Shown here in pieces: positions 1-64,000 of a stretch of DNA of 64,000 bases. The notes below the pieces were generated by a model that was given only the letters and a program-made list of their open reading frames with translations, made no database searches and was not told the origin of the DNA. Positions within the stretch are counted from its first letter, which is position 1. Every line of letters starts with the position of its first letter. The translations under genes were made by a program, and so were the position numbers. The DNA comes from Pyxidicoccus parkwaysis. Its GTDB lineage: Bacteria; Myxococcota; Myxococcia; Myxococcales; Myxococcaceae. Location: contig NZ_CP071090.1 of the NCBI RefSeq assembly GCF_017301735.1, positions 2,656,001 through 2,720,000 on the forward strand, read 5' to 3'.

Positions 1-598
1 GGTCCTGCCCGAGCCAGTGCTTGCGTCCGGCCTCGGTGTCCTCTGCTTCGAGGAGCTGGTTGAAGACCTCGGCCACGTCCGCGTACTGCGCATCCGGTGT
101 GGGGAGGGCACTGCCCTGGAGCCGCGCGGCGTACGCCTGGCCCAGCTCGCGCGCGAGGCTCCCCAGCGTCCGGTGATCCACCGAGAGCGCGGGCAGGTGG
201 ATGGCGAGCAGGTGCCGATGCGGAGCGAGCCGGGCGAGCCGGAACACGGGCCCGGGCCGTGCGTCGAGCTGCGCCTCCAGCTCCTCCTCGGAGGTGCTGC
301 TCCCATCGAGCAGCTCGAGCACGGTGGCGGGGACCTCGCGAGGCACCTGGACGGCGGTGCCTGTCCCGGGCAGGAGGAGGTACTCCGTCCGCAGCACCTC
401 GTGGCGCGAGAGGACGTCCGTCGCGGCCTGGGTGAGGCGCGGCACGTCCAGCGCTCCTTCGAGCAGGAGGACACAACGGGGGCGCCAGGCCTCGCCCGGC
501 TCCGCTTGTTGGAGGGACCAGAGGTGCCGTTGCTGGGGCGAGAGCCGGAATCCGGAGGGGGGCGGCATGGCGTGCAGTTCCTCGGGGTGGTCGTTCAT
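1..598 (-). CDS. NRPS, N-terminal condensation domain (partial, cut by left window edge)
   Basis: The minus strand opens at the ATG at 598 and stays open to base 1, giving 199 residues of a longer protein. The reading frame (seen by translating the strand) has the start of a condensation domain: FRLSPQQRHLW near residue 16, then an RHEVLRTEY-type motif near residue 69. Condensation domains join an upstream acyl or aminoacyl chain to the next amino acid in nonribosomal peptide synthesis. The catalytic HHxxxDG motif is not canonical: the equivalent stretch reads HLPALSVDH, so the second His and the Gly are absent. The start overlaps the stop of the dioxygenase gene by 4 bases (ATGA), implying translational coupling and one operon with the FAAL gene upstream. 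The rest of the protein, presumably an adenylation domain and a carrier, lies outside the window. Confidence 0.85.
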   Translation of the reverse strand, partial: MNDHPEELHAMPPPSGFRLSPQQRHLWSLQQAEPGEAWRPRCVLLLEGALDVPRLTQAATDVLSRHEVLRTEYLLLPGTGTAVQVPREVPATVLELLDGSSTSEEELEAQLDARPGPVFRLARLAPHRHLLAIHLPALSVDHRTLGSLARELGQAYAARLQGSALPTPDAQYADVAEVFNQLLEAEDTEAGRKHWLGQD

Positions 599-1647
599 CC
601 CGGCTCCGTTCGAGGGACGTCGTCCCAGGAGAAGGGATGGGCGAGGGCGGCCAGGACCCGGCGCGGGCCGACGAAAGGCGCGCGGCCGTGCGCGGCCAGC
701 AGGTTGTCGACGAGGAGCACGTCTCCTTCCCGCCAGGGGAAGCTCACCGTCTCCTCGTGGTACGCGGCGCGCAGTTGCTCGAGCACGTGGGGCTCGATGG
801 GCGAGCCATCACCGTAATAGGTGTTGTTGGGAAGCGACTCCTCACCGAGCTCCGCGCGCAGTGCCGCGCCGACCTCGGATGGGAGTGTCGAGACGTGGAA
901 GAACGTGGCGTGGTTGAACCACACGGGCTCGCCGGTGACGGGGTGCCTGCCCGCGGCGCGGCGGCGCTGCCGGGTCTTCAGGTGCTGGCCGTCCTTCCAT
1001 TCGAACTCGATGCCACTGCGGCGGCAGTAGTCCTCCACGGCCGCCCTGTCCTCTGTCTGGAAGGCGGTGCGCCAGGAGAGGCCGAACCGGTCGTCGAAGT
1101 TGCGGACGTACAGGTAGCCCTGCTCCTCGAAGCGGGCGCGCACGGAGGCCGGGAGTCGCTGGTAGATGCGGCGTGTGTCGGCGAGGGGCGTCTGTCCGCC
1201 CTCGCGCGCGGCCGTGACGCAGCAGAAGACGAGCCGCAGCGGGAAGGTCAGATTGTAGGACTGCTCGTTGTGCAAGAAGATGGGCTCGCTCGGAGGGTGG
1301 TCCGTCGAGGTGTAGATGTGGCCTCGCACCACGGAGCGCGGTGACGAGCGCTCTTCGTAGGCGAGCGGCTCTCCGGCGATGGCGCGGGTGACGGGCTCCA
1401 GGGCCTCGGCGGAGCGGATGTCGAAGCCGCGGAAGAGCAGGGCACCGTGGGCGTGGAGGCGGGCCTCGAGGAGCTCCTGGTGGCTTCGGGCCCACTCGGC
1501 CAGGATGACCTCCGGGAGCGCGGGCTTGACGACCAGCGGCAGACGCGAGCCGGGTTGAAGCTCCTCGAAGTGGACCGCGTCCGCTCCGGATGCGCCGAGC
1601 TCCCTCCTGCGGAGGGGCGGCAGTGGCTTCCTGCTCTTGGGCTCCAT
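595..1647 (-). CDS. TauD/TfdA-family Fe(II)/2-oxoglutarate dioxygenase (SyrP-like)
   Basis: This 350-residue protein belongs to the TauD/TfdA family. These enzymes hydroxylate unactivated carbons using Fe(II), oxygen and 2-oxoglutarate; SyrP-like members hydroxylate NRPS-bound amino acids. The iron-binding facial triad is visible as H126-x-E128 (LHNEQSYN, Glu in place of the commoner Asp) and a distal His near 320 (LAAHGRAPF), followed by the Arg expected to hold 2-oxoglutarate. The start chosen is the ATG at 1647, 8 bases after the FAAL-ACP-C gene ends; longer in-frame starts would run into that gene. The stop overlaps the next NRPS gene by 4 bases. Its position between two NRPS genes argues for beta-hydroxylation of a building block or of the peptide. 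The exact substrate cannot be read from sequence. Confidence 0.88.
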   Translation of the reverse strand: MEPKSRKPLPPLRRRELGASGADAVHFEELQPGSRLPLVVKPALPEVILAEWARSHQELLEARLHAHGALLFRGFDIRSAEALEPVTRAIAGEPLAYEERSSPRSVVRGHIYTSTDHPPSEPIFLHNEQSYNLTFPLRLVFCCVTAAREGGQTPLADTRRIYQRLPASVRARFEEQGYLYVRNFDDRFGLSWRTAFQTEDRAAVEDYCRRSGIEFEWKDGQHLKTRQRRRAAGRHPVTGEPVWFNHATFFHVSTLPSEVGAALRAELGEESLPNNTYYGDGSPIEPHVLEQLRAAYHEETVSFPWREGDVLLVDNLLAAHGRAPFVGPRRVLAALAHPFSWDDVPRTEPG

Positions 1648-1654
1648 GTGCGTG

Positions 1655-4600
1655 CTATCCCTCGCTCTTGCGGCGGATGTTCCGGAACTTCTCGGCCCGT
1701 GCTCCGCGGAGCGCCTCGGCCTGGGTCTGCTTCCGCTCCCGGTCGAGCCCGGCGAGCGTGTCCCGGAGCTCCTCCAGTGTTGCGTCCGGCCGTCCGGTGG
1801 CGGCGGTGAGCAGGGCCTCGAAATCGCCCGCCAGCCGGGAGATGGCCGCGGCGTCGAAGAGCGCCGTGCTGTAGCGGAGCGCGCCTCCCAGGTGGCCCGA
1901 GGACTCGGAGAGGATGACCGACAGGTCGAAGGGCGAGCCCCCATCATCCACCGGGAGCTGGCGCGAGGAGAGCCCGGGCAGGGCGAGCTCGGGCAGGGGC
2001 GCGTTCTCCAGGACGAACATCATCTGGAAGAGCGGGTTGTAGCGCGCGTCTCTCGGGGGCCGCACGGCCTCGACCAGCGCGTCGAAGGGCAGCTCGGAGT
2101 GCGCGTAGGCCCCGAGCGCCACCTCCTTCACGCGCGCGAGCAGTTGCCGGAACGTCGGGTTGCCCGACAGTCCGACGCGGAGCACGAGCTGGTTGACGAA
2201 CAGGCCGATGAGCCCCTGCGTCCTGGGGTGGTGCCGGTTGGCGATGTCCGTGCCCACCACGAGGTCCGTGCGTCCCGTGCGGGCGTGGAGCACCACCAGG
2301 AACGCGGAGAGCAGCGTCATGAAGGGCGTGGCGCCCTCGGCCCGGCCGAGCGCCGCGAGCGCCGCGGTGGACTCCGGGGAGAACGAGAGCGGGTGCCACG
2401 CGCCTCGCAGCGAGGGCGTCGCGGGCCGGGGATGGGCCTCCGGCAGCTCGAGCACGGGCGGGGCGCCAGCGAGCTGGGACCTCCACCACGCCGCCTCGGA
2501 CTCCCGCAGCCCCTGCTCCAGGCGGCGCCGCTGCCACGCCGCGTAGTCCGCGTACTGGAGGGGAAGCTCGGGCAGCGCGGAGGGCCTGCCCTCGCGCAGG
2601 GCCGTGTACAGGGCCCCCAGCTCGCGGACGAGCACTCCCATGGACCAGCCGTCCGTGACGAGGTGGTGCAGCGTGAGCACCAGCAGGTGCCGGTCTCCGG
2701 CGAGCTTCAGCAGCCGGGCCCGGACGAGCGGACCGTGCTCGAGGTCGAAGGGGCGCCGCACCTCCTCGGTGAGGAGCCGCCGGGAGACCGGCTCGCGCTC
2801 CACTTCGGGGAGGGTGGACAGGTCGGTGAGGGCGCCGTTCCAGGAGAGGAGCGAGTCCGGGACGTCCCGCGCGGGAGTGATGCGCTGCACGCGCGAGCCG
2901 GCCACGGTGGGGAAGGAGGCCCGCAGGGCCTCGTGCCGGCGGAGGACGGTGGCGAGACTTCGCCCGAGCAGCTCCACGTCGAGCGCGCCCTCGAGCAACA
3001 CCGCCGCGGGGATGTTGTACGCGGAGCTCGCCGGGGCGAGCTGCTCCAGGAAGAGGAGCCGCTCCTGCGCATGTGAGAGGGGGACGGTGTCGCCGTGGGG
3101 GACGGGCTTGAGCGGCGGCGCCGACGGGGCGGGGGCGTGGAGCGCCTCGAGCACCCGGGCCGTGAGCTCGCGCAGGCTGACGCCGTCGAGCAGGTGCGCG
3201 ATGGGGAGGCTGACGCCCAGGTCCTCCTCGAGCAGGGCGTTGAGCTCCACGGAATGGATGGAGTCGAGCCCGAACGCGGTGAGGGGACGGGACTCGTCGA
3301 GCGCCGCTTCCGGGACGGAGAGCCGCCGCGCGAGGTGGGCGCGCAAGGACGCTTCCAGCACGCGCGGGCGCTCCGCCTCCGGGTGTGCCAGGAGTGCCGC
3401 CCGCGTGAGGCGCGGAAGCTCGGGGGCGGGCTGCCGCGCGGGCTCACTGCTCGCGAGCGTGCTCCGGGCGATGACCTCGAGCCCATCCGAGAGGTACAGC
3501 TCCCGGCAGGCGCGGCGCTGAATCTTCCCGCTCGAGGTCTTCGGGATGCTGCCCTGGGAGATGAGCACCACCTCGTAGGGGGAGACCTCGTGGTGCGAAG
3601 CCACGGCCTCGCGGAGCGAGTCGAGGAGCGCCTGGGGCTCGAAGGGTTGCGAGCGCGAAGCCTCCAGGACGAGCACGAGCCGCTCCTCGCCGGCCACGTC
3701 CACGGAGAAGGCGGCGGAGCAGCCGGGGCGCAGGGCGGGGTGGAGGGACTCGGCGGTCTGCTCGAGGTCCTGCGGGTAGAGGTTGCGCCCGCGCAGGATG
3801 ATGAGATCCTTGATGCGACCGGAGACGAAGAGCTCGCCGCCGACGAGGAAGCCGAGGTCTCCGGTGCGCAGCCAGGGGCCCTCGCCGGTGTCGCTCCTGT
3901 GGGCCTGGAAGGTCCGCGCAGTCTCCTCGGGCTTGTCCCAGTAGCCCTGGGCGACGCTCGGGCCCCGGAACCAGATTTCACCCGTGCGGCCCTCGGGCAG
4001 GGGCATGGCCGAGGCGGTGTCGGCGATGAGCAGCTCATGGCCCGGCACCGCAAAGCCGCACCCCACGAGGGCGCGCGAATCGCTGGGGCCTCGCGCGGAG
4101 ACAGGCGACTCGAGCGCCTCGCCGCGCTCCAGCGCCTCGCGCTGGAAATGGCGCACGGTGGGGGCCGTGGCCTTCCGCCCGGTGGTGACGCACAGGGTGC
4201 CTTCGGCCAGCCCGTAGCAACCGAAGAAGGCCTCCGGGCGGAAGCCGCTCGGAGCGAAGGCCTGGGCGAAGCGCTCGAGGGTCTCCGCGCGGATGGGCTC
4301 GGCCCCGGTGAAGGCGAGCTCCCACGTGCTCAAATCGAGCGCGGCGCGTTGCTCGGGCGGCGTCTTCCGGACGCACAAGTCGTAGGCGAAGTTGGGCCCG
4401 CCGGAGAACCGGGCGCGGTAGCGGGAGATGGCCTCGAGCCAGCGCGCGGGGCGCTGCAGGAAGTCGAGCGGCGACAGGAGGACGATGGACAGCTGCCCGT
4501 AGAGGGGCTGGAGGATGCCGCCGATGAGCCCCATGTCGTGGTACGGGGGCAGCCAGCTCACAGCGCGGCTCCGGGGCGGGCTCCCGAAGGTCTGCTGGAT

Positions 4601-5179
4601 GGCGGTGGAGTTGCGCAGCAGGTTGCCGTGCGTGAGGACGACTCCGCGAGGCGAGCCCGTGGAGCCGGAGGTGTACTGGAGGAAGGCGAGCGACTGGGAG
4701 TTGAAGCCAGGCTCCTTCCAGGCCGAGGCGGCGTCCCCGGGCACCTCGTCACTGGCGAGCCAGGTGAGGGAAGCGAGCCGGGGTGCCTGCTCGGCCATCC
4801 AGCCGGCCATGGCGTGGATGGCGGAGGTGGTGAGCACGAAGCGCGCGCGAGCGTCGGCGATGAGGGCCTCGAGCCGCGGCAGGGTGCGCTGGAGGCGGGA
4901 CGGTTCGGGCGGGTAGGCGGGGACGGCGACGGCGCCCGCGTAGAGGCACCCGAAGAAGGCGGTGATGTACTCGAGACCGGGCGGGTGGAGGAGCAGCACG
5001 CGCTCGCCGCGAGCCCCCCGCTCCTGGAGCAGCGCGCCAATGGCCCTCGCCTGCCGGTCGAGCTCCGCGCAGGTGAGCCGGGCCTCCTGCGTCTCACCAT
5101 CCAGCAGGAAGGTGTAGAGGACCTCCTCCGGTGCGCTGGCGGCGCGCTGACGGGCCAGGTCGATGAGGGTGTCGCTCAT
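1655..5179 (-). CDS. Fatty acyl-AMP ligase / acyl carrier protein / condensation domain fusion (lipopeptide starter module)
   Basis: This 1174-residue protein starts lipopeptide assembly. Residues about 1-590 are a FAAL-type adenylating domain: the phosphate-binding loop YTSGSTGSPRG begins at Y169, there is a PPYHDMGLIGG motif, and SSGKIQRR marks the C-terminal lysine. Residues about 625-700 are a carrier domain with the phosphopantetheine serine at S640 (GLDSIHS). Residues about 725-1165 are a condensation domain with a canonical H838-H839-LVTD-G844 motif. FAALs activate a free fatty acid as acyl-AMP and load it on the carrier; the condensation domain would then acylate the first amino acid. 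The start at 5179 follows the palindromic divergent spacer; upstream in-frame codons lie inside that spacer or in the opposite gene. It is the first gene of the leftward operon. Confidence 0.92.
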   Translation of the reverse strand: MSDTLIDLARQRAASAPEEVLYTFLLDGETQEARLTCAELDRQARAIGALLQERGARGERVLLLHPPGLEYITAFFGCLYAGAVAVPAYPPEPSRLQRTLPRLEALIADARARFVLTTSAIHAMAGWMAEQAPRLASLTWLASDEVPGDAASAWKEPGFNSQSLAFLQYTSGSTGSPRGVVLTHGNLLRNSTAIQQTFGSPPRSRAVSWLPPYHDMGLIGGILQPLYGQLSIVLLSPLDFLQRPARWLEAISRYRARFSGGPNFAYDLCVRKTPPEQRAALDLSTWELAFTGAEPIRAETLERFAQAFAPSGFRPEAFFGCYGLAEGTLCVTTGRKATAPTVRHFQREALERGEALESPVSARGPSDSRALVGCGFAVPGHELLIADTASAMPLPEGRTGEIWFRGPSVAQGYWDKPEETARTFQAHRSDTGEGPWLRTGDLGFLVGGELFVSGRIKDLIILRGRNLYPQDLEQTAESLHPALRPGCSAAFSVDVAGEERLVLVLEASRSQPFEPQALLDSLREAVASHHEVSPYEVVLISQGSIPKTSSGKIQRRACRELYLSDGLEVIARSTLASSEPARQPAPELPRLTRAALLAHPEAERPRVLEASLRAHLARRLSVPEAALDESRPLTAFGLDSIHSVELNALLEEDLGVSLPIAHLLDGVSLRELTARVLEALHAPAPSAPPLKPVPHGDTVPLSHAQERLLFLEQLAPASSAYNIPAAVLLEGALDVELLGRSLATVLRRHEALRASFPTVAGSRVQRITPARDVPDSLLSWNGALTDLSTLPEVEREPVSRRLLTEEVRRPFDLEHGPLVRARLLKLAGDRHLLVLTLHHLVTDGWSMGVLVRELGALYTALREGRPSALPELPLQYADYAAWQRRRLEQGLRESEAAWWRSQLAGAPPVLELPEAHPRPATPSLRGAWHPLSFSPESTAALAALGRAEGATPFMTLLSAFLVVLHARTGRTDLVVGTDIANRHHPRTQGLIGLFVNQLVLRVGLSGNPTFRQLLARVKEVALGAYAHSELPFDALVEAVRPPRDARYNPLFQMMFVLENAPLPELALPGLSSRQLPVDDGGSPFDLSVILSESSGHLGGALRYSTALFDAAAISRLAGDFEALLTAATGRPDATLEELRDTLAGLDRERKQTQAEALRGARAEKFRNIRRKSEG

Positions 5180-5202
5180 GCGCCCGGAAGGTAGTCCGAA
5201 GT

Positions 5203-5222
5203 TGAATGTGATGTCATATTCA
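5203..5222. promoter_or_regulatory. AT-rich palindrome in divergent promoter region (operator candidate)
   Basis: The 49-bp gap between the FAAL gene (start 5179, leftward) and the glycosyltransferase gene (start 5229, rightward) contains TGAATgTGAtgTCAtATTCA. It is symmetrical except for the two central bases and one base in each half (pattern TGAATnTGAnnTCAnATTCA). It is strikingly A+T-rich against its surroundings and lies where both promoters must sit. An operator for a dimeric regulator is the natural reading. No regulator gene is visible in the window. Confidence 0.5.
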
Positions 5223-5228
5223 TGCGCC

Positions 5229-6482
5229 ATGCGCATCACGCTCATCACGTTCGGCACGGAGGGAGACGTCCGGCCTTTGGTGGCGCTGGCCGAGGGCCTC
5301 GCCCGGGCGGGACACACTCCGGTGCTGGTGGCCGACCCGACGTTCGCGCCGCTCACCGAGGGGCGCGGCATCGTCTTCAAGCCCCTCTCCGGTGACATTC
5401 GCGCCACCACGGCCAGCTCGGAGATGGAGGCGCTCTTCACCCGGGGCCTCAACCCGGCGGAGCTCTCGCGCATGATGGCGCGCCTCGCCATCGACCACTC
5501 GGAGTCGTGGGCCGAGCAGTTCCTCGCCGCGGCCCGGGGCAGCGACGCCATCATCGCGATGGGCCTGGGGTACTTCATCGGCCTGTCCATCGCGGAGAAG
5601 CTGGGCATTCCCGCCATCGGCGCGGGCCTGCAGCCCGTGTCCCCCACCGGCCGGTTCCCGCCTCCGCTCATTCCTCCACCCCGGCGCCCACTGCCAGGGG
5701 TGGTCAACCACGCGCTGCATGTCGCGATGCGGCAACTCGTCTGGCTCGGCTTCCGCCGCATGGTCAACCAGGCGCGCCGAAACGTGCTGGGACTGGAGCC
5801 CTGGTCGCTCGTCCATCCCGGCCACGTCATGTTGAAGCGCCGCTGGCCGGTCATCTACGGCTACTCGCCCGTGGTCGTCCCGCAGCCGTCGGACTGGCCC
5901 GACATCATCAAGGTCACCGGCTACTGGTTCCTGGACGGAGCAGGGAGCTGGAAGCCGCCGGCGGCGCTGCTCGACTTCCTCGATGCCGGGCCCGCGCCCG
6001 TGTACGTCGGCTTCGGCAGCATGGGCGGCTTCGACCCGGTGGAGACGAGCCGGCTCGTCGTCCGAGCGCTGAACGGCCGGCGCGCGGTGCTGGCGGCGGG
6101 CTGGGGGGCGCTGGACCGGAGTGCTCTCCCCGACACCGTGCACTTCCTGGACTCGGCGCCGCACGACTGGCTCTTCCCCCGGATGTCCGCCGTCGTGCAC
6201 CACGGTGGCGCGGGGACCACGGCCGCGGCGCTCCGCGCGGGCGTGCCCATGGTCACCGTGCCATTCCTGGGTGACCAACCCTTCTGGGGCTGGCGCATGG
6301 AGCTGCTCGGCGCGGCGCCGGCCCCGATTCCGCGCAAGCAGCTCACGGCGGAGAACCTCGCCTCGGCGATTGCCGCCACGGACCGGCCCGGGCTGCGCGA
6401 GCGGGCGGAGCAACTCGGCGGACTCATTCGCGCCGAGGACGGCGTGTCCCGGGCGGTGCGCGTCATCGAGGGCGTGCGATGA
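5229..6482 (+). CDS. GT1-family glycosyltransferase (sterol-glucosyltransferase/UGT-like)
   Basis: This 417-residue protein begins MRITLITFGTEGDVRP, the hallmark N-terminus of GT-B fold family 1 glycosyltransferases related to sterol 3-beta-glucosyltransferases and macrolide/glycopeptide glycosyltransferases. The C-terminal nucleotide-sugar site is present: VYVGFGSM near residue 258, then HHGGAGTTAAALRAGVP and GDQPFWG. These enzymes move a sugar from a nucleotide donor to a hydroxyl on a lipid or natural product. The start at 5229 is chosen because the similarity begins exactly there. The stop overlaps the P450 start by 4 bases, so the two are probably co-translated. Divergence from the FAAL operon with a 49-bp shared spacer suggests it glycosylates that product. 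A lipid acceptor is the alternative. Confidence 0.88.
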   Translation: MRITLITFGTEGDVRPLVALAEGLARAGHTPVLVADPTFAPLTEGRGIVFKPLSGDIRATTASSEMEALFTRGLNPAELSRMMARLAIDHSESWAEQFLAAARGSDAIIAMGLGYFIGLSIAEKLGIPAIGAGLQPVSPTGRFPPPLIPPPRRPLPGVVNHALHVAMRQLVWLGFRRMVNQARRNVLGLEPWSLVHPGHVMLKRRWPVIYGYSPVVVPQPSDWPDIIKVTGYWFLDGAGSWKPPAALLDFLDAGPAPVYVGFGSMGGFDPVETSRLVVRALNGRRAVLAAGWGALDRSALPDTVHFLDSAPHDWLFPRMSAVVHHGGAGTTAAALRAGVPMVTVPFLGDQPFWGWRMELLGAAPAPIPRKQLTAENLASAIAATDRPGLRERAEQLGGLIRAEDGVSRAVRVIEGVR

Positions 6483-7843
6483 GCGCCGCGCGAGAGGCAC
6501 CGGGCCCGAAGGGCCACTGGTTCTGGGGCAGCCTGCGCGAGCGGCGGAAGGAATCGCTCCACTTCTTCCTCCGGATGCACCGCGAGCACGGCCGCGTGGC
6601 GCAGTGGCGGATGGGGCCCGTCAACCGAGTGATTTCCCTGGTGGACCCGGAGCACGTGCGGCACGTCCTGGTGGAGCACGTGGGCCGGTACACGAAGGGC
6701 TTTGGGGGAAAGCGGCTGAGCGCCATGCTCGGCAACGGGCTGCTGACCAGCGAGGGAGACTTCTGGAAGCGGCAGCGGCGGCTGGCCCAGCCCGCGTTCC
6801 ACCGCGAGCGGCTGGTGCCGATGGTGCGGGTGATGGAGGAGGAAGGCCGGCGCATGCTGGAGCGCTGGCGGGAGCGTCCAGACTCTTCCGCGCCGCTGGA
6901 CCTGGCGGAGGAGATGGCGAGGACGACGCTCTCCATCGCCAGCCGGGCGCTCTTCTCCACGCAGGTGATTGGCGAGGCGGGCCGCGTCCTGCCGGCGCTC
7001 ACGGTGGCGCAGCAGGAGGTGAACGGGCGCGTCCTCGCGCTGCTGCCGCTTCCGCTCGCGCTTCCGACTCCGGGCAACCGCGCCTTCCTGCGGGCGCGCC
7101 GGACGCTCGACGCCGTCGTCTTCGACATCATCGCCCGGCGCCGCCGGGGAGAGACGACCGGGCAGGACCTGCTGGCGATGCTGATGGAGGCCCGCGACGC
7201 GGACACGGGCGAGGGCATGACGGACGCCCAGCTCCGCGACGAGCTGATGACGCTCTTCATCGCCGGGTATGAGACCACCGCCAACGCGCTGGCCTGGACC
7301 TGGTCCCTGCTGTCCCAGCACCCGGAGGTGGAGGAGCGGGCGCGCGCGGAGGTGGCCCGGGTGCTCGGCGAGCGGGTGCCCGAAGCCGAGGACATCCCCC
7401 GGCTGCGCTACCTCTCGCAGGTCCTCGAGGAGAGCATGCGCCTGCACCCTCCCGCCTGGGTGCTGGTGCGGCAGGCACTGGAGGACGACGTGCTGGACGG
7501 CTTTCGCATCCCCGCCGACCCACGCCTCATCGTGGCCATCTCACCGTGGACCATCCACCGCCAGCCGGACCTCTGGCCGGACCCGGAGCGATTCGATCCG
7601 GACCGCTTCACACCGGAGCGCGCGGCGGGGCGGCCCCGCCTGGCCTACCTGCCCTTCGGCGCGGGACAGCGCCTGTGCATCGGCACCCACTTCGCCATGA
7701 TGGAGATGGTGCTCCTGCTCGCGCAGGTGCTCCGGCGCTACCGCCTCCGGCGCGTGCCGGGCACGAAGGAGGAGCAGGAGCCCCTGGTGGCGCTCCGCCC
7801 CAGGGGAGGAGTGCCCATGTACCTGGAGCCCCTCGACGCCTGA
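6479..7843 (+). CDS. Cytochrome P450 monooxygenase
   Basis: This 454-residue cytosolic P450 has every signature motif. The I-helix oxygen-binding motif is A262-GYETT, the K-helix motif is E318-SM-R321, and the heme loop FGAGQRLCIG has the axial ligand Cys400. No N-terminal membrane anchor is seen. The closest style is the CYP102/CYP110-like bacterial fatty-acid or natural-product hydroxylases, but the substrate cannot be assigned. It overlaps the glycosyltransferase by 4 bases (ATGA). The pair could add a hydroxyl and then a sugar to the lipopeptide made by the divergent NRPS genes. A redox partner is not encoded nearby. Confidence 0.95.
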   Translation: MSAAREAPGPKGHWFWGSLRERRKESLHFFLRMHREHGRVAQWRMGPVNRVISLVDPEHVRHVLVEHVGRYTKGFGGKRLSAMLGNGLLTSEGDFWKRQRRLAQPAFHRERLVPMVRVMEEEGRRMLERWRERPDSSAPLDLAEEMARTTLSIASRALFSTQVIGEAGRVLPALTVAQQEVNGRVLALLPLPLALPTPGNRAFLRARRTLDAVVFDIIARRRRGETTGQDLLAMLMEARDADTGEGMTDAQLRDELMTLFIAGYETTANALAWTWSLLSQHPEVEERARAEVARVLGERVPEAEDIPRLRYLSQVLEESMRLHPPAWVLVRQALEDDVLDGFRIPADPRLIVAISPWTIHRQPDLWPDPERFDPDRFTPERAAGRPRLAYLPFGAGQRLCIGTHFAMMEMVLLLAQVLRRYRLRRVPGTKEEQEPLVALRPRGGVPMYLEPLDA

Positions 7844-7850
7844 GCGGCCG

Positions 7851-9191
7851 TCAACCGATGACCGCCAGCAGCCGCTGCTCGAAGCGGCCCAGGAGCGACT
7901 CGGCGCGCGCCGGCACGAGGTTCCGCCGGTCATAGACGGTGTGGGCGCGCAGCCCTCCACACGTGCTGACCGACATCACCACCGCCTGGCTCGGCATCGC
8001 TCCGCCCAGGAAGCCCATGCCCCGGAGCGTCAGCGTCCGTCCGGGTTCCGGCGTGGGCAGGCGTCCGACGTTGGTGATGACGCTGTTCCAGGGGAAGCGC
8101 ATCATCCCCTGGATGAGCGCGACGCCCCCCTCCCGCGAAAGGTTCGGCGGAGCCTGTGCGTAGGTGAGCTCGTGCAGGAGGTGGGCATTGCCCAGCTCGG
8201 CCTGATATCGAACGTCTTGCGTGACGGTGCGCGCCAGCTCCCAGAACGGCTCCTGGTTGCTCACGCGGATGCGGCTGACCACGCCCGACAGGCGCACCCC
8301 GACGTCATCGGAGACCGTGGGACTGTGGCGTACGGTCCGCAAATCCACGGGCGAGCCGAGTGACATCACCACCGACTGCCCGGGTGACAGGAACTCCGCG
8401 TGCAGGGCCCCCAGCCACGCCGCGCCCAGGGCTCCGTGGACCGTCGCGCCGTTTCGCCGGCAGGCCTGGACCAGGGCTTCCGTCTGCTCGGGCGACAGCT
8501 CCAGCAGGTGGTGGCCACTCTCCCGCGTCAGGCGCAGCTCCTCGCACAGCCCCGGGATGATGTTGCCAGGAGCCAGCGTCTGGGCCCGGGCCCGGATGTC
8601 CGCGACCACCGTCGCGAAGTGGTGGGCCTTGTCCGGCGCGCCGAAGGCCTCGGGGCGATAGAACGACTCCTGCGCTGGTGGTGGCGGGCTGGGAGTCGGG
8701 GCCACGCCCTCATCCAGGAAGCGGACCAGCTCCGTCATCAGCCTCGCGCTCGAACGGCCGTCGCCGATGGCGTGGTGGAACGTCAGCCCCACCCACGACC
8801 GGGCCGCGTCACCGGCCACGTGCGCCCGGAACAGGGGCGCACTGCCGTCGGCGAAGGGCCGGTCCAGCTCGCGCAGCCAGTGGGCGAGCAACTCCTCGGG
8901 CGCGACGCGCACCAGCTCCGGCGGGGTCACCTCCACGGACTCGAAGCAGGGGCGGCCCACCGTGGCGTCCTCGACGATGCGCGCCCGCAGGAGGGGGTGG
9001 GCCTCGGCGAGCGCCACGAGCCCTCGCGCGAGCGCCTCGTCCGACACGGGGCCGGTGAGCTCCACGTAGGCGATGAAGTTGCCGCAGATGACCCGGTCGA
9101 TCTGCCAGAAGAGGCACTCCGCCAGCCCCAGCGGGCGGCGCCAGGCGGTCATCGACTCCGAGCTCACGGAAGGCGGGGGCACGGCACTCAT
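7851..9191 (-). CDS. Stand-alone condensation-domain-like acyltransferase (PapA/WS-DGAT-like)
   Basis: This 446-residue single-domain protein has the condensation-superfamily motif H139-HAIGD-G145. The ending is typical of free-standing acyltransferases such as polyketide-associated PapA proteins and alcohol acetyltransferases: a WNSVITNVGRLP motif and, further on, a buried beta strand with SVSTCGG. Such enzymes transfer an acyl chain from a carrier or CoA to a hydroxyl or amine. There is no carrier or adenylation domain. A strong Shine-Dalgarno (GGAGGT) lies just before the ATG at 9191. It converges on the P450 with 7 bases between stops. It may esterify or release the left-edge lipopeptide; an independent role is possible. 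Confidence 0.8.
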   Translation of the reverse strand: MSAVPPPSVSSESMTAWRRPLGLAECLFWQIDRVICGNFIAYVELTGPVSDEALARGLVALAEAHPLLRARIVEDATVGRPCFESVEVTPPELVRVAPEELLAHWLRELDRPFADGSAPLFRAHVAGDAARSWVGLTFHHAIGDGRSSARLMTELVRFLDEGVAPTPSPPPPAQESFYRPEAFGAPDKAHHFATVVADIRARAQTLAPGNIIPGLCEELRLTRESGHHLLELSPEQTEALVQACRRNGATVHGALGAAWLGALHAEFLSPGQSVVMSLGSPVDLRTVRHSPTVSDDVGVRLSGVVSRIRVSNQEPFWELARTVTQDVRYQAELGNAHLLHELTYAQAPPNLSREGGVALIQGMMRFPWNSVITNVGRLPTPEPGRTLTLRGMGFLGGAMPSQAVVMSVSTCGGLRAHTVYDRRNLVPARAESLLGRFEQRLLAVIG

Positions 9192-9365
9192 GGGCTGACC
9201 TCCGCGCGAGGGCTTCGTGCCGCCCCCACGCCATGCGAACCGATGTGAAGACCGATTCAGGCTTCAGCATACCTCGGCATGGGAGCAGAGGGCGGAGATG
9301 AAGGGGCCGTGGGGTTGCTTCGGGCTGCCACGGCACGAAGTGGCGCCCGAGCCACCTGGCACGCG

Positions 9366-10607
9366 TCACTTCGTTCGCAGGAACCAGAGGTTCGTCTTCG
9401 ACGACGGCAGCAGCACGAAGCCCTTCAAGGCCGGCACGTAGCGGAAGCGGCTATGCACCCCGGCCGCGCTCGCCGCGGCGGGAACACCCGTCACCTCCTT
9501 GATGCGAATCGTCCAGGGCCCCGAGTCGGCCGGCGTCACCGCGTAGACGCGCTCTGGAATCGGGGTGAGCTTCGCCCCCGCCCAGCTCCCGCCCACGTAG
9601 AACAGGAACTCGTCATTGAGCGGGTCGTAGTCCATCGCTGCGTACATCGGCTCGTCGGACTTCAATTGGTCCAGGGCCGCATTGGCGGTGAAGGTCACGC
9701 TCACCTGCGCATGGCCATCGACGGGGACGCGCGAAGCCGAGAGCCCCGTGCCCGCGCCCTGGCCGTCACCCCATTGCAGCGTGAAGAGCTGCCGGCGCTT
9801 CGAGTCGTACGCGCCCGGGAATCGGACCTGGTCGGCCGTGCGCGTGGTGATGGGCCTGGTCCACTTCTTCGCCACCGGCTCGTACCGCTCGAAGGCGGTG
9901 GTCCACACGTTGCCTTCGCCGTCGCGCACGAACCCATACCCATCCGTGGCCAGCGGATGCACACCCTCGCCGTCCCAGGTGTTGGTGTTGAGGTTGAACC
10001 CATCGTTTGTGTTGACGTCCCAGGCCGAGGGATACGTGAAGCGCGGCCGCACTCGCAGGACGCGGTCCGCCGTCGGCGAGTAGAGCGTCGACTGGTAGGT
10101 GTGCATCGAGGCGGGTTGGCCATCGGCGTTGTAGCCGACGTTGGTTCCGGCCACCGGTGACGCGGCCTTTCGCACCACCCACGCGGGCGCATCGACGTCG
10201 ATGCGAATGGAGACGGTGCGATTGTCGGAACTGTCGCCATGTCCGCCCGCGGCGGCGATGATGAGTTCGCTCGTGCTGTCCTTGATGGCCATGCCGCTGT
10301 AGGCATCCACCGGCGCGCCGCCAGCCCCGGTGGTGCCGGGAATCTCGACCCATTGATTGACCGCCGCGCCCGTCAACCAGGTTGGGATGCGTCCATCACT
10401 GGGCGGCCCGGCATCAAAGGTCCCAGCGTCGCTGCCCGCACCGGCGTCAGGCGTCGAGCCGGCGTCGGCCGTCGAGCCGGCGTCTTCCGGGCCACTGCCT
10501 CCAGTCTCGCCGGAGCAGCCGTACAACACGAACGCCAGGACAGCAGTGGCCTTCACGAGATGACGAAACGAGACACCTGGTTCGTTCAAGGGCATGCCGG
10601 TGAGCAT
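9366..10607 (-). CDS. Surface lipoprotein with kelch-like repeat region
   Basis: This 413-residue protein has an N-terminal signal ending in the lipobox LYGC, followed by a low-complexity linker rich in DAGS/PDAG units, a common tether on myxobacterial surface lipoproteins. The remainder holds repeated short blocks (DAYSGMAI, GGHGDSSDN, GAYDSKRRQLF, MDYDPLNDEFLFYVGG) that look like blades of a beta-propeller. No catalytic motif was seen, so the role is unknown; adhesion or glycan binding would fit. The ATG at 10607 is used. An in-frame ATG at 10595 would remove four residues and is equally possible, since neither has a clear ribosome-binding site. Confidence 0.7.
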   Translation of the reverse strand: MLTGMPLNEPGVSFRHLVKATAVLAFVLYGCSGETGGSGPEDAGSTADAGSTPDAGAGSDAGTFDAGPPSDGRIPTWLTGAAVNQWVEIPGTTGAGGAPVDAYSGMAIKDSTSELIIAAAGGHGDSSDNRTVSIRIDVDAPAWVVRKAASPVAGTNVGYNADGQPASMHTYQSTLYSPTADRVLRVRPRFTYPSAWDVNTNDGFNLNTNTWDGEGVHPLATDGYGFVRDGEGNVWTTAFERYEPVAKKWTRPITTRTADQVRFPGAYDSKRRQLFTLQWGDGQGAGTGLSASRVPVDGHAQVSVTFTANAALDQLKSDEPMYAAMDYDPLNDEFLFYVGGSWAGAKLTPIPERVYAVTPADSGPWTIRIKEVTGVPAAASAAGVHSRFRYVPALKGFVLLPSSKTNLWFLRTK

Positions 10608-50425: not shown

Positions 50426-53400
50426 ATGGACACCCCGAACGACCCGAACAACTCCATGGCCATCGCCGTGGTGGGCCTGAGCCTGCGCTTCCCCGGTGCC
50501 CGGGACGAGCGCCGCTTCTGGCAGAACCTGTCCTCGGGCATCGAGTCCATCACCCTCCTCGACTCCGAGCAGCGAGCGAAGGCCGGGATGCCCTCGGAGC
50601 CGGGCTGGGTCGCCGCAGCCGGAGTGCTCGAGGACGCTGAGCTCTTCGACGCCGCCTTCTTCGGCTTCTCCCCCGGCGAAGCGGAGCGCATGGACCCGCA
50701 GCACCGCCTCTTCCTCGAATGTGCCTGGTCCGCGCTGGAGTCCGCGGGCCAAGCCCCCCGAGGCTCGCCTCTGCGCGCTGGCGTCTACGCGGCGTCCACG
50801 TTCAGCACCTACCTCCTGTCCAGCCTGCTCCCCCGCGCGGGACGAGAAACAGCCGGTCTCGCCGACGGCCTCCTCTCCACGAGCGGCGACTTTCTCGCGA
50901 CACGCGTGGCCTATGAGCTGGACCTTTCCGGACCGGCCCTCACGGTGCAGACGGCGTGCTCCTCGTCGCTCGTCGCGGTCCACCTCGCGGTGCAGGCACT
51001 GCTCGCGGGCGAGTGCGACCTGGCGCTCGCGGGCGGTGCCTCCGTGCGCGTGCCGCAGCTGACGGCCCACCGCTTTCAGGAGGGCTCCATCCTCGCGCCG
51101 GACGGCCACTGTCGGCCCTTCGACGCTCGAGCCGCGGGCACCGTGGCGGGCAACGGCGTGGGCGTCGTCGTCCTCAAGCGCCTCGCGGATGCGCTCGCGG
51201 ACGGAGACCCCATCCGCGCCGTCATCCTGGGCACCGCCATCAACAACGACGGCGGCGCGAAGTCCGGCTTCGGCGCGCCCTCCGTGGACGGCCAGTCCGC
51301 CGCCATCCGCGACGCGCTGTCCATGGCCGGCGTGGCCCCTCAGGACATCTCCTACGTCGAGGCCCACGGCACCGCCACGCCGCTGGGAGACCCCGTGGAG
51401 GTGGCTGCGCTCCACGAGGTGTTCCGTGGCGTCGAGCCCGGCCACATCGGCCTGGGCGCGGTGAAGTCCAACATCGGGCACCTCGATGCCGCGGCGGGCG
51501 TGGCCGGGCTCATCAAGCTGGTGCTCGCGTTGGAGAACCGCCTCCTGCCGCCCACCATGCACTTCACCTCGCCCAACCCGCTGCTGGAGCTGGACGGCGG
51601 TCCGCTGTACGTGGTGTCTCAGCCCACGCCCTGGCAGGGGCGCGCGCCGCGCCGCGCGGGCGTCAGTGCCTTCGGCATCGGCGGCACCAATGCCCACGCC
51701 GTGCTGGAGGAGGCTCCACCCGTCCCGGGCGACGAGCCCCGGCGTGATGAGGAGTTGCTCCTGCTGTCCGCGAAGTCCGAGGCCGCGCTGGAGCGGATGA
51801 CGGAGGAACTGGCCACGCACCTGAGCGCGCGCCGTGAGCCGCTGGCGGACGTGGCCCATACGCTGCAAGTGGGGCGCGCGCGCTTTCCCTTCCGGCGCTT
51901 CGTCACCTGCGGCAAGGCAGAGAACGCGGCGGCGCTGCTGCGCGGAAGCGAGCCGGCACGCATGCGCACCACGCACGACGAGGCGGAGGCACGCGCGGTG
52001 GCCTTCCTCTTCCCCGGAGGCGGCGCGCAGCGCGTCAACATGGGCGCCGAATTGCTCAGCGAGCCCGTGTACCGCGAGGCCATCGACCGGTGCGCGGAGT
52101 TGCTGCGAGGCCCGCTCGGCGGAGACCTGCGTGAGGTGATGTTCGCCGGCCCCGAGCGCTTCGACGTCGCGAGCCGCGAGCTGGACCGCCCGCTGTGGCT
52201 GCTGCCAGCCGTCTTCGCGAGCGACTGGGCCCAGGCCGAGCTGTGGCGCTCCTGGGGCGTGAAGCCGGAGGCGATGCTGGGGCACTCGCTGGGCGAGTAC
52301 GCGGCCGCGTGCGTGGCGGGCGTCTTCACATTGGAGGAGGCCCTGACGCTCGTCACGGCGCGGGCCCGGCTGATGGAGGGCATGCCTCCAGGAGCCATGG
52401 TGTCCGTGCTCGCGCCGGTGGAGACGCTGACGCCGCTGCTCGCCCCGGAGCTGTCCGTCTCCGCCATCAACGGCCCCGCGACGTGTGTCATCGCCGGGCC
52501 TCCCGGCGCCATCGAGTCCTTCGAGCAGTCGCTGACGGCGCGCGGCGTGGAGTTCCGGCGCGTGCGCATCCCCCGGGCGGTGCATTCGTCGATGCTGGAC
52601 CCGTACCTCGCGGACTTCGCGCGAGTGGTGTCGCGCGTCGCCCTCCGGTCTCCAACGCTGCCGGTGGTGTCGAGCCTCACCGGCCGCTGGCTGGAGCCGC
52701 ATGAGGCCACGGACCCCGAGTACTGGGTACGCCACATGAGGGAGACGGTGCGCTTCTCCGATGCGCTGGGCTGCCTGCTGTCGTCGGGAGACAGGGCGCT
52801 CATCGAGGTGGGGCCGGGCACCATCCTCTCATCGCTCGCGCGACAGCACCCGGCGCGGACGTCGCAGCCGGTGATTGCCTCACTCCCAGGCAACGCCGAC
52901 CGCAAGACGAGCCCGCTGAACGCGCTGGGCGAGGCCTGGCAGGCCGGAGTGAACCTCGACTGGGAAGGCTTCCGCGCCGGAGAGCGCCGCCGGAAGGTGA
53001 CGCTGCCGACATACAGCTTCGACCGCGAGCGGCACTGGCTCGAGCCTGTCGATTCGTCGGCCGGCGGAGTCCACACCGGGGCGGTGCCTCCGCCACCTCC
53101 CGCGCCCCGTCGAGCGACGCCGCGCATGGGCCCGGCGGCGCCACCGCGCGACGAGACGGAGCGGGCGCTGGCCGGTTACTTCCAGGAGTTGTTCCGCATC
53201 CAGGACGTCGGCATCCACGATGACTTCTTCGCGCTGGGCGGAGACTCGCTGCTGGCGCTGCGGCTGACCGCGTGGATATCGGACCGCTTCGCCGTGCGCC
53301 TCGCGCTGAAGGAAGTGCTGGAGGCGCCCACGGTGGCTGTGCTCGCCAGGCGGCTTGGGGACGCCTCGGGTGCGACGCCCACGAAGACAGGTCCTTCGTG

Positions 53401-54172
53401 CCTGGTGCGCATCCAGGACGGCACGCGCGGGACGCCGCTCTTCTTCGTGCACGCGGCCGGAGGGCAGTCGCTCTTCTACCGCGAGCTCGCGCGGAGCATC
53501 GACGCGTCCCGGCCGGCGTACGGCTTCGAAGCGGTGGGGCTGGAGAGCGACACGTGCCACACCTCGGTGGAGGAGATGGCGGCGCACTACCTGGAGGCAC
53601 TGAGGACGGTGCGGCCCGCCGGGCCCTACCTGCTCGTCGGCGCGTCCTTCGGCGGCAGCGTCATCTTCGAGATGGCCCGCAGGTTGACCGCCGAGGGCCA
53701 TGCGGTGCCGTTGTGCGCGATGCTCGACGCGCCGGGCCCGGGCCGGTACCCCGAGCCGCTCGAGGATGACGCCGAGGTGCTGGCCTACCTGGCGGGCCTC
53801 TGGGTGGAAGTCCCGGCGGCGCGGCTGCGTGGCCTGTCACTCGACGCCCAGCTCCAGCTCATCCTCGACGAGGCGAGGCGCGCGGGCGTCCAGGCCTTCG
53901 CCGACCTCGAGCAGGGCCGACGGTGGTTCGCGGTGTGGAAGAACAACCTTGAGGCGCTCGTCCGTTACCCGGCGCCGCGCTGGGAGGGAGAGGTGCAGTT
54001 CTTCCGCGCGGCCGAGCGGCTGCCGCGAATGCCGCGCTTCATGGAGCAGGCCTGGACGGAGCGCTGCTCGGCGCTGCGGGTGGAAATCGTCCCAGGCAAC
54101 CATGAGAGCATGCTGCTGCCTCCTCACGCGCACGTGCTGGGCGCGCGGCTGGCGCGCCTGCTGCCGGACTGA
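50426..54172 (+). CDS. Type I polyketide synthase module KS-AT-ACP-TE
   Basis: This 1248-residue protein is a single PKS module with chain release. The ketosynthase covers residues about 10-430: Cys178 in QTACSSSL, His314 in EAHGTATPLGD, His352 in NIGHLDAAAG. The acyltransferase covers about 525-825: Ser621 in GHSLGEYAA and His720 in RAVHSSM. The usual HAFH/YASH selectivity motif reads AVHS here, so malonyl is only a guess. The carrier domain has Ser941 (GGDSLLAL) and the thioesterase Ser1074 (GASFGGS) with its His in GNHESM. There is no ketoreductase, dehydratase or enoylreductase, so the added unit stays a keto group. It faces the NRPS gene, which lacks a release domain; the stops are 6 bases apart. 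Confidence 0.93.
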   Translation: MDTPNDPNNSMAIAVVGLSLRFPGARDERRFWQNLSSGIESITLLDSEQRAKAGMPSEPGWVAAAGVLEDAELFDAAFFGFSPGEAERMDPQHRLFLECAWSALESAGQAPRGSPLRAGVYAASTFSTYLLSSLLPRAGRETAGLADGLLSTSGDFLATRVAYELDLSGPALTVQTACSSSLVAVHLAVQALLAGECDLALAGGASVRVPQLTAHRFQEGSILAPDGHCRPFDARAAGTVAGNGVGVVVLKRLADALADGDPIRAVILGTAINNDGGAKSGFGAPSVDGQSAAIRDALSMAGVAPQDISYVEAHGTATPLGDPVEVAALHEVFRGVEPGHIGLGAVKSNIGHLDAAAGVAGLIKLVLALENRLLPPTMHFTSPNPLLELDGGPLYVVSQPTPWQGRAPRRAGVSAFGIGGTNAHAVLEEAPPVPGDEPRRDEELLLLSAKSEAALERMTEELATHLSARREPLADVAHTLQVGRARFPFRRFVTCGKAENAAALLRGSEPARMRTTHDEAEARAVAFLFPGGGAQRVNMGAELLSEPVYREAIDRCAELLRGPLGGDLREVMFAGPERFDVASRELDRPLWLLPAVFASDWAQAELWRSWGVKPEAMLGHSLGEYAAACVAGVFTLEEALTLVTARARLMEGMPPGAMVSVLAPVETLTPLLAPELSVSAINGPATCVIAGPPGAIESFEQSLTARGVEFRRVRIPRAVHSSMLDPYLADFARVVSRVALRSPTLPVVSSLTGRWLEPHEATDPEYWVRHMRETVRFSDALGCLLSSGDRALIEVGPGTILSSLARQHPARTSQPVIASLPGNADRKTSPLNALGEAWQAGVNLDWEGFRAGERRRKVTLPTYSFDRERHWLEPVDSSAGGVHTGAVPPPPPAPRRATPRMGPAAPPRDETERALAGYFQELFRIQDVGIHDDFFALGGDSLLALRLTAWISDRFAVRLALKEVLEAPTVAVLARRLGDASGATPTKTGPSCLVRIQDGTRGTPLFFVHAAGGQSLFYRELARSIDASRPAYGFEAVGLESDTCHTSVEEMAAHYLEALRTVRPAGPYLLVGASFGGSVIFEMARRLTAEGHAVPLCAMLDAPGPGRYPEPLEDDAEVLAYLAGLWVEVPAARLRGLSLDAQLQLILDEARRAGVQAFADLEQGRRWFAVWKNNLEALVRYPAPRWEGEVQFFRAAERLPRMPRFMEQAWTERCSALRVEIVPGNHESMLLPPHAHVLGARLARLLPD

Positions 54173-54178
54173 AGAAGC

Positions 54179-64000
<9,822 letters not shown>

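Follow-up and report, generated by a model that had tools for sequence, protein, structure and literature searches.

We analyzed a stretch of 64,000 nucleotides from the genome of Pyxidicoccus parkwaysis (the window, G000:C1:2656001-2720000; the genome, G000, is a single contig of 13.2 Mb), whose left end carries part of a biosynthetic gene cluster starting with a fatty acyl-AMP ligase (FAAL). A window coordinate p corresponds to genome position 2656000+p, and negative values lie to the left of the window. A preliminary description had assigned six genes here: a protein combining FAAL, acyl carrier protein (ACP) and condensation (C) domain, a dioxygenase, a nonribosomal peptide synthetase (NRPS), a glycosyltransferase with a P450, and a free acyltransferase. 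All of these were found in place (Table 1), with proper start codons in the six genes, stops in the five not cut by the window edge and Pfam assignments above the gathering scores throughout. The NCBIfam equivalog matches of the glycosyltransferase, P450, oxygenase and acyltransferase are under their cutoffs, as are the scores of the FAAL models matching the starter protein. The proposed translational coupling towards the left, with a coupled glycosyltransferase/P450 pair diverging from it, agrees with the measured spacing: the FAAL and oxygenase (TauD) genes are 7 bp apart, and TauD/NRPS1 as well as glycosyltransferase/P450 overlap by 4 bp each. Extending the contig to the left revealed that the first NRPS (NRPS1) is no fragment but is completed and followed by three further assembly-line genes, which extend 16 kb past the left edge of the window, to genome position 2640032. 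The nine cluster proteins recur in a second genome (G109) with 92–97% identity, and chance is therefore excluded as the origin of the cluster.

Table 1 Genes and features of the cluster in window coordinates. A, adenylation; T, thiolation; TE, thioesterase; KS, ketosynthase; AT, acyltransferase domain; KR, ketoreductase; DH, dehydratase; LLM, luciferase-like monooxygenase; C° and E°, condensation-like and epimerase-like domains judged inactive from their motifs; PKS, polyketide synthase.
Feature	Position	Strand	Length	Assignment based on
FAAL-ACP-C starter protein	5179 to 1655	minus	1174 aa	Pfam AMP-binding, DIP2-like AMP domain, PP-binding, Condensation
TauD-family Fe(II)/2-oxoglutarate oxygenase	1647 to 595	minus	350 aa	Pfam TauD 1.8e-49
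NRPS1, C°-A-T	598 to -2605 (N-terminal part 598 to 1 in the window; end at genome 2653395, ~2.6 kb past the left edge)	minus	1067 aa	Pfam
PKS, KS-AT-KR-DH-ACP-C-like (E°)	-2602 to -9342	minus	2246 aa	Pfam
NRPS2, C-A-T-TE	-9368 to -13363	minus	1331 aa	Pfam
C°-LLM, condensation-like domain and TIGR04020 luciferase-like monooxygenase, no A core or T	-13371 to -15968	minus	865 aa	
Divergent start region between FAAL and glycosyltransferase genes	5180 to 5228		49 bp	
GT1-type glycosyltransferase, EryCIII/UGT-like	5229 to 6482	plus	417 aa	Pfam; nearest NCBIfam model Rgt, below cutoff
Cytochrome P450	6479 to 7843	plus	454 aa	Pfam p450 4.2e-96
Free PapA5-like acyltransferase	9191 to 7851	minus	446 aa	Pfam PapA_C and Condensation; NCBIfam PapA5 below cutoff

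Judged by its domains, the whole is a hybrid NRPS-PKS cluster from Myxococcaceae that spans 25 kb, and the window holds its starter and tailoring end. The architecture read from the sequence is FAAL-ACP-C / TauD / C°-A-T / KS-AT-KR-DH-ACP-E° / C-A-T-TE / C°-LLM, accompanied by the glycosyltransferase, the P450 and the PapA-like acyltransferase. As in FAAL-initiated lipopeptide synthetases, a FAAL with its cognate ACP and a condensation domain stands at the start. The condensation motif HHxxxDG is present in the C domains of the starter protein and NRPS2 and missing in those of NRPS1, the PKS tail and C°-LLM. In the starter protein it reads HHLVTDG and is kept in 16/16 rows, the window's own included, and the NRPS1 domain, lacking both catalytic histidines (PALSVDH), is dead in all 16 rows. 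In the PKS, the KR (residues 1150–1346) precedes the DH (1366–1640) according to the Pfam coordinates. The second histidine of its tail domain is replaced in all 19 readable of 21 rows, two truncated ones (G064B, G065B) being left out. This tail is of E-type sequence, with TVGxF in the same 19 rows, and its nearest solved chains belong to PvdL (stretch 94–414), GrsA, BacC, TycA and TycB, in stretches that are epimerization (E) domains. Neither HHxxxDG nor EGHGRE, the catalytic motif of E domains, is kept. On these motifs, the PKS tail is a catalytically dead epimerase-like domain.

The binding pocket of NRPS1 reads DAKDLGLVDK in G000 and G109 and D-(A/T)-K-D-L-G-x-V-(D/N)-K in 16/16 aligned rows, and that of NRPS2 reads DTFWLGGTFK in all nine aligned rows of the cluster's own clade (clade A, defined below); by the specificity codes, these would be Glu-like and Val- or aliphatic-like, respectively. 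The PKS AT carries HAFH in 21/21 rows, which points to malonyl specificity.

The last gene of the line encodes a protein of unusual composition. Its oxygenase part matches TIGR04020 (MupA/Atu3671 luciferase-like monooxygenase) with 468.2 bits at a cutoff of 244.45 and has PuwE (6ket) as nearest solved structure, and the condensation motif of its front part is lost in all 21 readable of 22 rows (G062B being left out). The stretch ahead of the monooxygenase resembles the A8 region of an A domain, and the protein thus appears to be a decayed module of the form C-A(LLM)-T. It has a head (in G000: MKNVQDVYRLSP) like that of NRPS2 (MKNVDDVYKLSP), the first dozen residues being similar, and the pattern is common to the 21 readable C°-LLM rows and to 17 counted NRPS2 rows (of 25; the other 8 are best hits to other modules). 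Because both heads share this pattern, C°-LLM is predicted to dock where NRPS2 docks.

To place the cluster among its relatives, we searched 195 genomes of the phylum with C°-LLM and TauD and 145 genomes of the order with the glycosyltransferase. For each locus the best match was taken above identity floors of 58% (FAAL), 60% (TauD), 51% (NRPS1), 60% (PKS), 46% (C°-LLM), 75% (glycosyltransferase), 70% (P450) and 60% (acyltransferase). The PKS/NRPS2/C°-LLM backbone of the window cluster, which defines clade A, occurs in nine related genomes from three genera. Only in two of them (G000, G109) is the FAAL-TauD-NRPS1 block attached before the backbone. It is missing from the locus in the remaining seven, hereafter called short-A, of which G108, G120, G062 and G067 have the glycosyltransferase, P450 and acyltransferase and G043, G044 and G046 the P450 only; the backbone of G067 is split over two contigs. 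A second group, clade B, comprises longer clusters that each include a FAAL-TauD-NRPS1 set, sharing 49–53% (C°-LLM) and 62–64% (PKS) identity with clade A over full-length matches. The clade-B clusters of G120 (C21, 48–90 kb) and G110 (C1, 2.51–2.55 Mb) have seven and six further NRPS-module matches past the common PKS, and the sister products should therefore share the head and differ in the peptide tail. In all 15 loci with the three block genes on one stretch, TauD lies in the middle. The FAAL of G046 (contig C111), the NRPS1 of G062 and the clade-B PKS of G062 are in no alignment, and the trees exclude rows shorter than 300 aa.

The family has a third, still more remote relative, with two tandem TauD genes and a FAAL of 57–59% identity (not searched in G063). 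It was seen at G108:C72 49–64 kb, G109:C1 ~11.59 Mb, G072:C111 27–33 kb, G066:C12 82–88 kb, G065:C110 13–19 kb and G063:C12 298–300 kb, in G108 and G109 also with a PKS of 42–44% identity in the KR-DH stretch.

Taking TauD at a minimum of 64% identity as its mark, the block is present in 17/195 genomes, among them all nine with the backbone. Each of the seven short-A genomes has a homologous block elsewhere (TauD 66–69%). In five of these (G044, G062, G067, G108, G120) it lies inside the clade-B, sister lipopeptide cluster, the clade-B genes of G062 being distributed over several contigs, and in the other two (G043, G046) it occurs without a clade-B cluster. In G043, the block stands alone at 1.98–1.99 Mb in surroundings that read as non-biosynthetic from their translations, and the backbone is found at 10.25–10.26 Mb; complementary parts thus lie at distant loci of one genome. 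In G046, TauD and NRPS1 start a contig and the FAAL (68%) is on another one, C111. Conversely, no second block was found in G000 and G109 at TauD identities of at least 64%. When backbone labels were shuffled within genera (three genera of 27, 6 and 16 genomes, with the block in 8, 3 and 6 and the backbone in 4, 3 and 2), the presence of all nine backbones among block carriers gave P = 2.5e-5 and that of the seven unattached ones P = 3.1e-4. Wherever sequence is covered, the block genes are free of internal stops. The ratio of nonsynonymous to synonymous divergence (dN/dS) between G043 and G046 is 0.21 for TauD and 0.17 for NRPS1, compared with 0.175 for the PKS, 0.13 for C°-LLM and 0.15 for the P450. 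The remote block is under purifying selection where tested, namely for TauD and NRPS1 in this pair.

These data suggest that FAAL-TauD-NRPS1 is a separable priming block, which in the seven relatives would prime the PKS in trans and in five of them would also serve the sister line. We give this reading a probability of about 50%. According to an alternative explanation, short-A clusters prime themselves, with primary metabolism supplying the KS with an acyl chain. In that case the attached block would be an add-on that lengthens the product, and its co-occurrence with the backbone would reflect shared ancestry and large genomes. The compact gene sets of the short-A loci, with no block gene nearby, are in line with this, as is the fact that block and backbone carriers fall in the same three genera. 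On the other hand, G043 keeps the block with neither an in-cis acceptor nor a TE, TauD and NRPS1 are under the purifying selection described above, and the association of block and backbone persists within genera. The KS, moreover, shows otherwise little sign of a changed substrate: short-A sequences share 86–88% identity with G000 in this domain, compared with 56–70% in the tail domain, and within clade A few domains have diverged less; conservation of the ACP is similar (82–94%). We found no KS column in which the attached forms equal every clade-B row while both unattached groups differ. Similarly, clades A and B resemble each other in the tail of NRPS1 and in the head of the PKS (in most rows MSxEQ...). 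This conservation of KS and docking sequences fits an unchanged donor but is no proof of it, and we consider self-priming somewhat less likely than not.

Priming in trans has, in turn, several observations against it. The clade-A genomes are related members of three genera; their co-occurrence amounts to few independent events, and the P values are not strict. For five of the seven genomes, a separate cluster houses the block, which accounts for its presence without any trans-priming. In G046 the block is cut by the contig end, and another FAAL/NRPS/PKS cluster, a possible acceptor whose KS-AT stretch is 56% identical to that of the window cluster, starts 6 kb downstream. With this other PKS, which self-priming can likewise claim, the odds of trans-priming are slightly lowered. 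In favor of trans-priming, G043 and G046 each gave a single match at E <= 1e-80, the clade-A one, but the search covered the KR-DH stretch of the PKS rather than each KS. Attached and unattached forms are told apart by five columns of the KS alignment, again as self-priming would have it. Finally, the docking heads and tails are short, and the Glu-like and Val-like calls depend on code positions and tables.

Regarding the age of the block, its identity to the clade-B counterparts (FAAL 63–66%, TauD 64–69%, NRPS1 53–59%) resembles that of the PKS (62–64%, full-length matches), which favors an old shared block. In the NRPS1 tree, G000/G109 join G110/G112 (100/100). On the PKS tree, two losses of the block and a loss followed by a regain require equal step counts. 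A more far-reaching version of trans-priming, which we put forward tentatively and at less than even odds, is that of a communal block: a single N-acyl-(beta-hydroxy)Glu donor would feed two lines per cell via a shared docking code, the loss of the attached copy would be tolerated and the block could outlive the sister line, with C°-LLM acting as a docking decoy, a decayed module carrying an NRPS2-like head.

The tailoring genes seem to belong to the same pathway, even though they have a history of their own. The P450 shares the cluster with the backbone in 9/9 clade-A loci, and glycosyltransferases of at least 82% identity occur in 7/145 genomes of the order, all seven of them backbone carriers; in G044 the two lie at different loci. 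G000/G109 group with Archangium in the trees of the PKS (98/98) and C°-LLM (99/98), whereas in that of the P450 their partner is G108 (97/96). At the DNA level, identity to G108 is 91% over 5197–9274 (glycosyltransferase, P450, acyltransferase) and 78–79% over the backbone, and identity to Archangium is 83% over the backbone and 82–83% for the P450. Synonymous divergence (dS) from G108 is accordingly lower for the glycosyltransferase (0.19), P450 (0.22) and acyltransferase (0.26) than for the PKS (0.50) and C°-LLM (0.64). Because trees, DNA identity and dS disagree between them, tailoring and backbone genes have separate histories, and the cluster is a mosaic. DNA homology to relatives without the block ends near gene boundaries, at about -2594 and 5197. 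The separate histories, together with Archangium loci that have the P450 and no adjacent glycosyltransferase or acyltransferase, could also mean that the three genes are unrelated neighbors of the synthetase. Given the constant company of the P450 and the confinement of the close glycosyltransferases to backbone genomes, we regard this as improbable.

In Archangium lansinium (G044), a glycosyltransferase-acyltransferase pair (L139, G044:C1:3704106-3706719) is located at 3.70 Mb with neither P450 nor synthetase beside it, its glycosyltransferase being 93% identical to that of the window; the backbone of this species is far away at 10.58 Mb, and the pair looks like a relocated or transferred tailoring unit. 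In a scan of a genome collection with the glycosyltransferase, the best 80 of 257 loci, from which genomes near the window's own were possibly left out, contained close matches (at least 82%) only in Myxococcus sp. RHSTA-1-4, Archangium lansinium and two Corallococcus. The next matches, from Azospirillum/Roseomonas (L026-L029, 58–60%), had no matching synthetase genes nearby and were rejected as cluster relatives. Three of them (L026, L027, L029; 59–60%) lie among genes that read as urease-like in translation. At 13 of the 80 loci (L059, L066, L070, L071, L072, L082, L085, L086, L087, L095, L097, L102, L103; Dyella, Lysobacter, Asaia, Acidiphilium and others), an NRPS-like gene precedes a glycosyltransferase of 40–46% identity by a short distance, a more distant pairing of the two functions. 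As for the other tailoring enzymes, the acyltransferase has the motif HHAIGDG in its translation, and the solved structures nearest to the P450 are 7wzl and 3dbg, followed by LUT5, CYP46A1, CYP4B1, CYP120, BM3 and others. To the right of the cluster lies a lipoprotein-like gene (9366–10607), whose 84% homologue in G109 sits on the opposite side, beside the C°-LLM gene. Close to the right edge of the window, a second NRPS/PKS locus starts (50426–64000) and continues beyond it.

A biosynthetic route can be proposed from the domains, in which the architecture and its conservation are observed and every chemical step is inferred. FAAL would adenylate a fatty acid onto its own ACP, and the active C domain would couple the fatty acyl chain to a Glu-like residue on NRPS1. 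TauD, a putative beta-hydroxylase, possibly of the SyrP type that acts with an interface domain, might hydroxylate this bound residue, perhaps with the NRPS1 C domain, dead in 16/16 rows, as platform or guide. Its position next to a Glu-type module suggests beta-hydroxy-Glu; its nearest solved relative is At3g21360. The KS could then take over the acyl-aminoacyl unit for addition of malonate (C2), reduced by the KR and, if active, also processed by the DH, and the dead epimerase-like tail would pass the chain to NRPS2. There, a Val-like (aliphatic) residue would be added and the TE would release the chain. Docking via its NRPS2-like head, C°-LLM may oxidize a bound intermediate in trans, and the P450, glycosyltransferase and acyltransferase would decorate the product, with sugar and acyl groups presumably attached to it. 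The likely product is a lipo-peptide/polyketide hybrid. The preliminary description expected an N-acylated, hydroxylated and glycosylated peptide. The FAAL-started, hydroxylated and tailored type fits the domains and their conservation, whereas the PKS, E°, TE and C°-LLM had not been foreseen. The term glycolipopeptide is therefore plausible but incomplete, as the chain would be polyketide-extended too and the sugar is predicted from the glycosyltransferase gene.

The usual view of an assembly line is that of a closed, collinear unit confined to a single cluster. In the related genomes compared here, one and the same starter block may be joined to the line, housed in a sister cluster or found by itself, and the relocated starter genes suggest that distinct assembly lines can draw on a common starter. 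Should trans-priming hold, predictions made one cluster at a time would give wrong products for the short loci, two metabolite families should vanish with a single knockout, and the tail of NRPS1 with the head of the PKS would make a naturally interchangeable docking pair of use in engineering. C°-LLM, as a free protein, is in addition a clear example of a dead module that has been retained and is likely to act as an oxygenase in trans. Altogether, the cluster appears to be a new form of FAAL-started NRPS-PKS lines, with a relocatable and possibly shared starter block as its point of interest.

In the literature searched (not a cluster database such as MIBiG), we found no described compound with this domain order. 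The closest candidates come from the same bacterial group. For corramycin and vioprolide, a FAAL-ACP-C loading unit at the start of the line is described, as in the window cluster; the next unit there is HAD-T (FAAL-ACP-C-HAD-T), corramycin being a line of 12 modules with an FkbH-like HAD domain, whereas the window cluster has a separate C°-A-T with the TauD gene between (PMC10099666). With only the starter in common, identity with either pathway was rejected. Cystomanamides are likewise myxobacterial, lipidated and hydroxylated, are fructosylated in two of four congeners and have their second Asn incorporated by a C-C-A-PCP module (PMC9581180). They differ by a 3-amino fatty acid, fructose as the sugar and five NRPS modules (Asn-Asn-Phe-glycerate-Tyr) with FkbH and E domains (PMC9581180). 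The window cluster does not follow this order of modules, and cystomanamide was rejected on domain order. Altogether, it is highly improbable that the cluster represents one of these described pathways.

Two of its oxygenases can also be compared with known systems. By sequence, the dead NRPS1 domain is not closest to the solved X domain, 4tx2, which ranked 11th among solved chains (1.9e-9); for the second oxygenase, MOx domains and TIGR04020 proteins are the same type of monooxygenase. A condensation-like domain that may be tied to a tailoring oxygenase would be a common feature with glycopeptide X domains, which have no working HHxxxDG and recruit P450s (PMC8949500), and with the interface domains annotated beside siderophore beta-hydroxylases (PMC12230676). 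The MOx domains of myxothiazol and melithiazol are monooxygenases nested in NRPS A domains and perform C-alpha hydroxylation (PMC11342130). C°-LLM keeps an A8-like relic before the LLM but differs from them as a free C°-relic-LLM protein with no A core or T left. At the level of whole pathways, aurachin, leupyrrin, rhodochelin and erythrochelin are split or cross-talking systems in which one pathway is encoded at distant loci. The arrangement described here differs from these in that the same starter block varies between species, being attached to the line, standing alone or residing in a sister cluster.

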